DNA of 64,000 nt from Natronorubrum thiooxidans (GTDB taxonomy: Archaea > Halobacteriota > Halobacteria > Halobacteriales > Natrialbaceae), in contig NZ_FTNR01000009.1 in assembly GCF_900156475.1 (NCBI RefSeq), positions 124,001-188,000 of the forward strand, given 5' to 3'. A program made the position numbers and the translations under genes. The notes beneath the pieces were generated by a model. That model did not search any database and was not told the DNA's origin. It worked only from the letters and a program-made list of their open reading frames with translations. Shown one piece after another: positions 60,434 through 62,769 of the stretch (its first letter is position 1; the number at the start of each line of letters is the position of its first letter).

Positions 60434-60504
60434 ACGGTGTGTCTGTATTCCACACGCAAAGAAATATGCCCACCATCGGTCGATGAAACGCGTTTGGATG
60501 CCAG

Positions 60505-60526
60505 ACACCCCTCGTTCAGAGTGAAA
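60505..60526 (-). repeat. Origin recognition box ORB1
   Basis: On the minus strand this reads TTTCACTCTGAACGAGGGG followed by TGT, identical to ORB3 and ORB4. Haloarchaeal origin boxes carry such a dyad core followed by a G-string and are bound by Orc1/Cdc6. It is exactly 100 bases from ORB2. Confidence 0.85.
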
Positions 60527-60544
60527 GGCTGTTCGATTCAATCT

Positions 60545-60589
60545 CGTGGGTAGGCACCAGGCGTTTGATTTGGTCCCGTGGGGAGGCAC
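60545..60589 (+). repeat. 13-base direct repeats between ORB1 and ORB2
   Basis: CGTGGGTAGGCAC (60545-60557) and CGTGGGGAGGCAC (60577-60589) match in 12 of 13 bases and are 32 bases apart. A related CGTGGGGGTCG follows near 60668. The role is unknown; they are G-rich like the ORB tails. Confidence 0.5.
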
Positions 60590-60604
60590 TAATTTGACGA
60601 GGAG

Positions 60605-60626
60605 AGACCCGTCGTTCAGAGTGAAA
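60605..60626 (-). repeat. Origin recognition box ORB2 (variant)
   Basis: Same orientation as ORB1, with two changes in the G-string side (GACGGGTCT instead of GAGGGGTGT); the core TTTCACTCTGAACGA is unchanged. It is exactly 100 bases from both ORB1 and ORB3. Confidence 0.8.
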
Positions 60627-60704
60627 TAATCGTCGTGGAGCCCGTCGGACGCCGGAGCATCGATTTTCGTGGGGGTCGTACCGAGAGCTGAGTGCCGGAC
60701 CCCC

Positions 60705-60726
60705 ACACCCCTCGTTCAGAGTGAAA
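60705..60726 (-). repeat. Origin recognition box ORB3
   Basis: Identical to ORB1 over 22 bases, followed on the minus strand by GGGGG, giving a full G-string. A degenerate opposite-facing half-site with GAGGGGTGGGGGTGTGG follows at about 60737-60753. It forms the left border of the unwinding region. Confidence 0.85.
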
Positions 60727-60810
60727 GGCGCTCACAGAGGGGTGGGGGTGTGGAGCGGGATAGGGGCATCGTGACATGTGAGTCAAACAGACGTGCAGTG
60801 ACTCGAGAAC

Positions 60811-60889
60811 AATGAGCGAGCGCGGATAATCAGTTGGACGGGATTGAGAGAGAGAATGAGTGAGTGCGAACAGTCAGTTGGACTGGATT
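60811..60889 (+). repeat. Two 35-base direct repeats inside the origin
   Basis: Copies at 60811-60845 and 60855-60889 match in 29 of 35 bases, spaced 44 bases start to start. Shared blocks include AATGAG, GAG.G, CAGTTGGAC and GGATT. They lie between ORB3 and the AT-rich part. Confidence 0.7.
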
Positions 60890-60904
60890 AGTGGATTGGC
60901 TGAC

Positions 60905-61035
60905 GACAACACAGCTTCTATCTCTTTCTTCTTCTTTCTAGAAACACGTCTAGCTAGTATAGTACGATTAACTCTTTTGATAGACACATATATTCCTGGT
61001 ATCTATCCATGATGGCATTTATCATAGCTCCATTT
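60905..61035. other. Probable duplex-unwinding region of the origin
   Basis: The most AT-rich stretch of the window, with pyrimidine runs (TCTTTCTTCTTCTTTC) and TAGCTAGTATAGTACG. An inverted repeat GATAGA (60979-60984) / TCTATC (61002-61007) is present. It is flanked by oppositely oriented ORB3 and ORB4, as expected where Orc1/Cdc6 melts DNA. Confidence 0.7.
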
Positions 61036-61106
61036 GGACCGCTCAACGGCGTCGTTCACGTCCTCGAGACGGTCACCACAACTGCCGGGACCCTCTCGAA
61101 CCCCCC

Positions 61107-61128
61107 TTTCACTCTGAACGAGGGGTGT
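61107..61128 (+). repeat. Origin recognition box ORB4
   Basis: Same 22 bases as ORB1 and ORB3 in the opposite direction (plus strand), followed by GGGGG. Together with ORB3 it brackets the AT-rich region. It lies about 215 bases before the orc1/cdc6 start. Confidence 0.87.
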
Positions 61129-61343
61129 GGGGGTCGTGTGGAACGATCCGATAGGGACCCCATCGAATCACCAGTGACCTCGACCGCATACTCCTCGAGG
61201 AACGCCCAGTACAGTCTGCATCCGGGGGATTCTGTATCAACGTGAAGACGGCCGAAACACACCGTCTGAAAACGTCTCCCGGACTGTTATCAGTCTGAAC
61301 TACCTTCCATAGTTTTATTATGTGTGTCTCCAAGAACGGAGAC

Positions 61344-62627
61344 ATGGCTGAACAGGCAGGGGACCCGCTTTTCCAATCTCACGATCCGATCTTCGATCGG
61401 AAGGAACTCCTCCACGTCGGTCACGTTCCCGACGAAGACCGGATCGTTGGACGGGACGACGAGATCCAGTCCGTCGCCGCGGAGGTCGGCGCGATCACGC
61501 GTGGCGATCCGCCGAATAACGTGATGATCTACGGCAAGACCGGCACCGGAAAGAGTCTCATCTCCCGACACGTCGCCACGCGAGCACAGACGGCGGCTCG
61601 AGACAACGAGATCGACTGTGGCGTCCTCTATATCGACTGCTCTGAAGCGAACACGGAAACCCGCGCGACGCGTCAGTTGGCGCTCAGTTTGAAAGACCAG
61701 ACGGGCTATCAGGAGAACATTCCGCTCCGGGGCGTCGGGACGATGGAGTACTACCAGCACATCTGGCGAATCCTCGAGGACTGCTTCGACGCGATCGTCG
61801 TCATTTTAGACGAGATCGATAAACTGGACAACAGCAACATCCTGATGCAACTCTCGCGGGCCCGTGAAGCCCAGAAGACGGACGCCTATATTGGCGTGAT
61901 CGGCATCAGTAACAAGGTCAAATATCGAGAGACGCTTGACGAACGCATCGACAGCAGCTTTGGGCACCGAGAGCTGTTCTTTCATCCGTACGACGCCTCC
62001 CAGCTCCGGGAGATCATGCGAAATCGCGAGGACGCGTTCCAGCCCGACGTCTTAGAGGACGGCACGATCGAACTCTGTGCAGCGCTTGCCGCCAAGAAAC
62101 ACGGTGACGCCCGCAAAGCGATCGAGATTCTCAAAGAAGCCGGCGAACTCGCCCGACGCACCGGCTCGGAGACCGTCTCGGAGGGCCACATCCAGCAGGC
62201 CCAAGAGGTCGCCGAGATCAACCGCATCGAGGAACTCACCAGCGGGGCGACCGTCCACGCGAAGCTCGCCCTCTATGCGCTGGCGAGTCGGATCATCACC
62301 GGCGACCGCGAGACCCACAAGACACGGGAAATCTACGAGCGCTACGTCGACATCTGTAACATGGTCACCACCGATCCGATCACCGAAAACGGTCTCTATC
62401 GCCAGCTCAAAGAGCAGGCGTTTCTGGGCGTTATCGAGTCAGAAAAGACCGGTGGCGGCCGCTCGCAGGGGAGTTACCTCCTGCATCGTCTCGTGACTGA
62501 CCCGAAACACATCATCAAGGCAGTCCGACGGGACGATTCACTCGAGGAGCTTCCGGCGTACGACCACCTCACGGAGACGGGGCATGCAGCGAGCAACCGT
62601 GACGTCGATCTGTCCTCGTTTTCCTGA
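61344..62627 (+). CDS. Orc1/Cdc6 replication initiator
   Basis: A 427-residue AAA+ initiator that binds origin boxes and loads the MCM helicase. Walker A is GKTGTGKS at 64-71 and Walker B IVVILDEID at 151-159; the C-terminal winged helix (about 330-420: HKTREIYERYVDICNMVTTD) recognises the ORB. The ATG at 61344 is preferred over an in-frame ATG at 61320 because the latter overlaps a TATA-like TTTTATTA at 61313-61320, which puts transcription start close to 61344 (a leaderless message). It is flanked by ORB elements on both sides, the normal set-up for an origin and its cognate initiator. Confidence 0.95.
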   Translation: MAEQAGDPLFQSHDPIFDRKELLHVGHVPDEDRIVGRDDEIQSVAAEVGAITRGDPPNNVMIYGKTGTGKSLISRHVATRAQTAARDNEIDCGVLYIDCSEANTETRATRQLALSLKDQTGYQENIPLRGVGTMEYYQHIWRILEDCFDAIVVILDEIDKLDNSNILMQLSRAREAQKTDAYIGVIGISNKVKYRETLDERIDSSFGHRELFFHPYDASQLREIMRNREDAFQPDVLEDGTIELCAALAAKKHGDARKAIEILKEAGELARRTGSETVSEGHIQQAQEVAEINRIEELTSGATVHAKLALYALASRIITGDRETHKTREIYERYVDICNMVTTDPITENGLYRQLKEQAFLGVIESEKTGGGRSQGSYLLHRLVTDPKHIIKAVRRDDSLEELPAYDHLTETGHAASNRDVDLSSFS

Positions 62628-62702: not shown

Positions 62703-62724
62703 TTTCAGTCTGAACGAGGGGTGT
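62703..62724 (+). repeat. Origin recognition box ORB5, downstream of orc1/cdc6
   Basis: TTTCAGTCTGAACGAGGGG plus TGT, one base different from ORB4, followed by GGGGGA. It lies 75 bases after the orc1/cdc6 stop and outside the main cluster, between the initiator and the second glutamate dehydrogenase. Confidence 0.82.
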
Positions 62725-62769
62725 GGGGGATGAACCTGTAAAAACGCGAGTCGACAGTCTCCCTCGAGA

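Follow-up and report, generated by a model that had tools for sequence, protein, structure and literature searches.

Does the intergenic region that precedes an orc1/cdc6 gene in Natronorubrum thiooxidans serve as a replication origin, and is the adjoining gene its own initiator? The question is raised by positions 60434-61343 of the window (the whole stretch of 64,000 nucleotides that was analysed), which a preliminary description had read as a probable chromosomal origin. An orc-adjacent origin is well supported by boxes exclusive to the locus, a conserved layout and co-occurrence with the initiator, and we put the probability that the locus is a self-contained cassette, in which a haloarchaeal orc1/cdc6-adjacent origin is joined to a cognate initiator that regulates itself, at about 0.85.

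The intergenic region contained three boxes on the minus strand and one on the plus strand, of sequence TTTCACTCTGAACGAGGGG. The gene starting at 61344, directly beside these boxes, was confirmed as orc1/cdc6: its 427-aa product matched the profile TIGR02928 at 389.5 bits (cut-off 181.3) and carried AAA+, Cdc6 lid and Cdc6_C winged-helix domains. A longer open reading frame starting at 61320 was discarded on account of its overlap with the conserved TATA element and because the conserved ATG is that at 61344. The four boxes of the preliminary description were real, with coordinates placed about 3 bases too low, and the left boxes were exactly 100 bases apart as claimed; a fifth box at 62703, 76 bases past the orc stop codon, had been overlooked. 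The boxes were also said to share a core with a G-string, which held for the core; the full G-string was present on the inner-left and right boxes and missing from the two outer boxes of the left arm. The features of the locus are as follows.

60508..60526, minus strand: outer-left ORB, full core, without extended G-string
60608..60626, minus strand: middle-left ORB, GACGGG for GAGGGG (one mismatch to the consensus), without extended G-string
60698..60726 (core 60708-60726), minus strand: inner-left ORB with extended G-string TGTGGGGG
60737..60759, plus strand: G-rich element inside the left ORBs
60886..61035, unstranded: candidate duplex-unwinding element, 63% AT over 150 bases
61101..61106, unstranded: run of C inside the right ORB, the inverted counterpart of the G-rich element on the left
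61107..61135 (core 61107-61125), plus strand: right ORB with extended G-string TGTGGGGG
61210..61228, plus strand: degenerate box TACAGTCTGCATCCGGGGG, kept in most Natrialbaceae orthologues
61288..61300, plus strand: promoter-proximal ORB core without G-string, TATCAGTCTGAAC, from the alignment of upstream regions
61313..61320, plus strand: putative orc promoter TATA element TTTTATTA, 24-31 bases before the ATG, predicted from spacing and conservation
61344..62627, plus strand: orc1/cdc6 initiator gene
62703..62729 (core 62703-62721), plus strand: downstream ORB with extended G-string TGTGGGGG

These boxes were confined to the locus. Five matches at up to 3 mismatches were found in the window, compared with 0.1 expected from dinucleotide shuffles of the window, and across the whole genome (4.2 Mb) boxes at up to 1 mismatch occurred in five places only, all within 2.2 kb at the initiator, with none scattered elsewhere. 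A box with 2 mismatches was seen on another contig (C30, locus L006).

Scanning one genome per species yielded 55 related loci, and the layout was counted in the window together with 35 non-redundant loci of 72-97% identity, 36 in all. Of these, 34 had left minus-strand boxes and 35 had the right plus-strand box, while a downstream box on the plus strand was universal (36 of 36). The middle-left form GACGGGTCTCTCC was seen again in the middle box of close relatives. The orc gene is accompanied by genes for a citE-like lyase and glutamate dehydrogenase and by gdhB, and the order gdh-citE-ori-orc-gdhB was kept in most Natrialbaceae loci. Of 125 family genomes, 60 have the initiator itself, spread over 12 of 29 genera. 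When genomes sampled in both the initiator and the box searches were counted, at least three box matches were found in 57/57 genomes with the initiator and in 3/64 without it (Fisher p ~2e-31); among these three exceptions, at least one (G118) shows the box of a sister clade instead. The orthologue was missing from about half of the sampled Natrialbaceae, indicating that the origin is dispensable. Two near-complete genomes of the same genus (G032 and G094) were among those lacking it, and they retained only 1-2 weak box matches, indicating that the whole cassette can be lost.

The sister initiator clade, at ~52% identity and with many members on plasmids, was associated with a box in which an A is changed to G, CTGGACGAGGGG; this sister-clade box, TTTCACTCTGGACGAGGGG, is one base off the box of the window. 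The tree separated the window clade and the sister clade with full support, in an unrooted topology whose long-branch joins are unsure. Sister-type boxes on plasmid pJ7-1 (96 kb, Natrinema sp. J7-2) were found only beside its orc1 gene; the plasmid is annotated with one orc1-family gene and one Cdc6/Cdc18-family gene. The box sequence is specific to the initiator family. H. volcanii orc3 and H. mediterranei cdc6M were considered as members of the sister clade, and the link was not established. Origin cassettes are held in the literature to move between plasmids and chromosomes, and the plasmid-borne boxes of the sister clade would fit such movement, with no direction claimed.

One downstream box was present in the window, two in Natrialba loci and five in a 74.5%-identical relative on a Halobellus ramosii plasmid (L280, 5314-5545), where they lie downstream of orc like iterons in 53-54-bp steps. 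In Halogeometricum pallidum (L097), three downstream boxes recurred at 58-bp steps; upstream of its orc, tandem repeats of about 90 bp containing an N replace the usual boxes, possibly as a scaffold artefact. The distance between left and right boxes reached 0.7-1.2 kb in some relatives. In Natrinema gari (L062, 3064-3798) an ORF lies between arms about 0.9 kb apart, and wide gaps were likewise found in L057, L059, L063, L064 and L066. These wide gaps, with the ORF in L062, make a shared unwinding site less clear.

Is the locus the principal origin of the genome? About 20 orc genes were found in the 4.2-Mb genome, at least nine of which, besides the window orc, have their own box type. Since many of these genes carry distinct repeat boxes, the locus is almost certainly one among about a dozen replication start sites, and it is paired with its own initiator gene. 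Identity with oriC1 was rejected: the Orc1 type that was present in 15/15 sampled genomes of the class is encoded by another gene, located here on contig C26, and the window Orc fell in a clade distinct from the universal Orc1. The designation as an origin was borne out by inverted boxes, exclusive co-localisation, co-inheritance, synteny and a family-specific box. The word chromosomal is supported by orthologues on finished or near-finished main chromosomes, namely the finished chromosome of N. zhouii and, in Haloterrigena sp. H1, a contig of 3.0 Mb, but N. bangense also has an identical copy on its megaplasmid. Around the origin, the N. bangense chromosome (NZ_CP031305.1) and its 828-kb plasmid (NZ_CP031306.1) are identical over a block of at least 22 kb, and the matching coordinates of another match suggest that the block is ~240 kb long and inverted. 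This duplicate block probably reflects a fault in the assembly, or else a large segment that was duplicated very recently.

The GC skew was uninformative. In the N. bangense chromosome the skew range was not above permutation (p 0.38), the sampled minimum (240-260 kb block) lying near the locus at 295 kb, and no contrast was detected in the N. zhouii chromosome. The N. bangense skew is unreliable because of the block common to chromosome and megaplasmid, and skews are weak where many origins coexist, so that these data speak neither for nor against an origin.

The abundance of orc genes also bears on whether the origin fires. A complete cassette could be dormant or vestigial, firing rarely or only once other origins are lost. 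Several other orc genes of this genome have boxes of their own, dormant origins next to orc genes are known from H. mediterranei and H. volcanii, and the skew is silent. Against this, selection has kept every box position, the G-strings, the promoter core and the neighbouring genes in dozens of species, and in Haloferax the active origins are the widely conserved, syntenic ones while the dormant one is sporadic. We regard dormancy as a serious though unlikely alternative, and the conservation described above suggests that the origin is probably active.

At least two inverted ORBs flank an AT-rich stretch, with 67% AT over 100 bases in the gap between left and right boxes, and most relatives also have an AT-rich core there. 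The preliminary description had called this gap the most AT-rich stretch of the window, which was true at the 200-base scale only; the gap ranked second at 100 and 150 bases, was approximately tied at 300 and came third at 400. Inside the boxes, the element at 60737..60759 showed a G excess in 31/33 loci and its inverted partner at 61101..61106 a C excess in 27/33 loci, resembling the G-rich enhancer repeat of H. hispanica oriC1.

The boxes themselves were graded. In the ten bases after the core, the mean number of G was 4.9 in inner-left, 5.2 in right and 5.5 in downstream boxes, compared with 2.9 in middle and 2.3 in outer-left boxes. In H. hispanica oriC1 both G-strings are essential (PMC3936714). 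Taken together with the graded G-string, this suggests that the inner-left and right boxes form the core pair and that the outer boxes are auxiliary. A different role had been proposed for the left arm, in which the three boxes act as a phased array and bound initiators would all lie along a single face of the helix. The two spacings of exactly 100 in the window invite this reading, but in relatives the left-arm spacings ranged from 52 to 737 bp and only 5 of 47 fell within 98-102 bp. No helical period fitted the left-arm spacings in Rayleigh tests at 10 to 11 bp (p 0.13-1.0), and 100 bp at 10.5 bp per turn corresponds to ~9.5 turns, which would put neighbouring boxes on opposite faces. A phased array is therefore very improbable, and on these data the even spacing seen in the window is no more than a local accident.

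Near the start of the orc gene, the upstream alignment of Natrialbaceae orthologues revealed the core TATCAGTCTGAAC followed at a nearly fixed distance by the TATA element. A half-box followed by a TATA-like element was present in 51 of 52 loci including sister clades, against a mean of 0.09 in shuffled sequences. The arrangement was not peculiar to this gene: all ten origin-type orc genes tested in the genome, with ten different boxes, had their own cognate core at the promoter. When the best match of each box core was taken on the coding strand between -100 and -20, mismatches amounted to 12% at a core's own promoter, 41% at other promoters and 43% on the opposite strand (permutation p 1e-5). 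The true pairing of cores and promoters ranked first of 5040 when the comparison was restricted to seven genes, without L015 (whose core was partly defined from its promoter copy) and two distant matches. The pairing was also observed in N. bangense and N. zhouii (3.25 mismatches of 13 at own and 5.49 at other promoters, p 2e-5) and in a class-wide sample of other haloarchaeal families (3.31 and 5.24, p 2e-5); in both of these the cores were picked automatically from sequence other than the promoter. These comparisons are limited in that some boxes share ancestry among the loci of a set, that some automatic cores, with two copies only, are probably wrong, and that start codons were assigned by a mechanical rule. 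We found no published report of haloarchaeal promoter boxes of this kind in the open-access literature.

The presence of a cognate core beside the TATA element of each tested orc gene implies autoregulation, and the most economical reading of these sequences is that the cognate initiator autoregulates its own gene. We infer that the sign of this regulation would be repression, because the core sits next to the TATA element. Somewhat more tentatively than for the origin itself, we favour the view that haloarchaeal cassettes in general carry their own box core, usually G-poor and on the coding strand, just upstream of the initiator TATA element as an autoregulatory module. If so, each coexisting initiator would hold its own level steady, independent of the others.

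A core that abuts the orc TATA element also raises the alternative that Orc binds the boxes mainly for transcription control or partition. The outer-left boxes precede the citE start by about 75-190 bp, and in Sulfolobus an Orc paralogue regulates transcription and binds its own promoter (PMC9738581). However, several orthologous loci keep the boxes without citE beside them, inverted boxes with G-strings on either side of an AT-rich gap are what defines the proven origins of haloarchaea, and the sister-clade boxes adjoin the sole annotated orc1-family gene of a 96-kb plasmid (which has one further Cdc6/Cdc18-like gene). A role mainly in transcription control or partition is accordingly improbable, if less so than the phased array.

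In the origin-initiator cassette that we propose, the initiator encoded from 61344 would bind the inner-left and right ORBs, which face each other and both carry extended G-strings, and the bound protein may open the AT-rich gap between them, leading to MCM loading. The outer-left boxes could supply extra binding sites and the downstream ORB probably takes up initiator, while through the G-less core by the orc TATA element the initiator would repress transcription of its own gene or adjust it in some other way. As a case of multi-origin haloarchaeal replication, the origin is ordinary and well conserved. Its value lies in its anatomy, namely the graded G-string, the downstream box in every relative and the cognate core at each tested initiator promoter, which offers a simple model, open to direct test, for the coexistence of ten or more origin-initiator pairs in one cell without interference, and bears on how the supply of initiator is controlled when an archaeon has multiple origins.

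Origins of Natrinema sp. J7 tested for autonomous replication (PMC5350488) were considered as the same locus and rejected, since the published primers mismatch the N. gari orthologue, and no experimental support was borrowed from that study. Proven haloarchaeal origins have the same layout and depend on their own adjacent cdc6 (PMC3936714; PMC3528665). The predicted origin families of 15 haloarchaea (PMC3528665) were assigned by the same prediction criteria as used here, with box type tied to initiator family. Origins of the pJ7-1 type, from the sister Orc clade, resemble the window in having inverted boxes of nearly the same core upstream of orc and a promoter-side core; they differ in the box, CTGGACGAGGGG, in an inverted arrangement that sets one distal box against several near the gene, and in being often plasmid-borne. 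Haloarcula hispanica oriC1-cdc6A (PMC3936714) likewise has two inverted ORBs with extended G-strings, an AT-rich region and an inner G-rich inverted repeat; unlike in oriC1-cdc6A, the initiator of the window belongs to another type than the universal Orc1, the box core differs and the inner G-rich repeat is imperfect. H. hispanica oriC2-cdc6E (PMC3936714), which depends on its own cdc6, has ORBs upstream and directly downstream of the initiator gene, like the window. It carries 11 downstream ORBs in 722 bp where the window has one; in oriC2 this downstream ORB cluster restrains the origin (PMC3936714).
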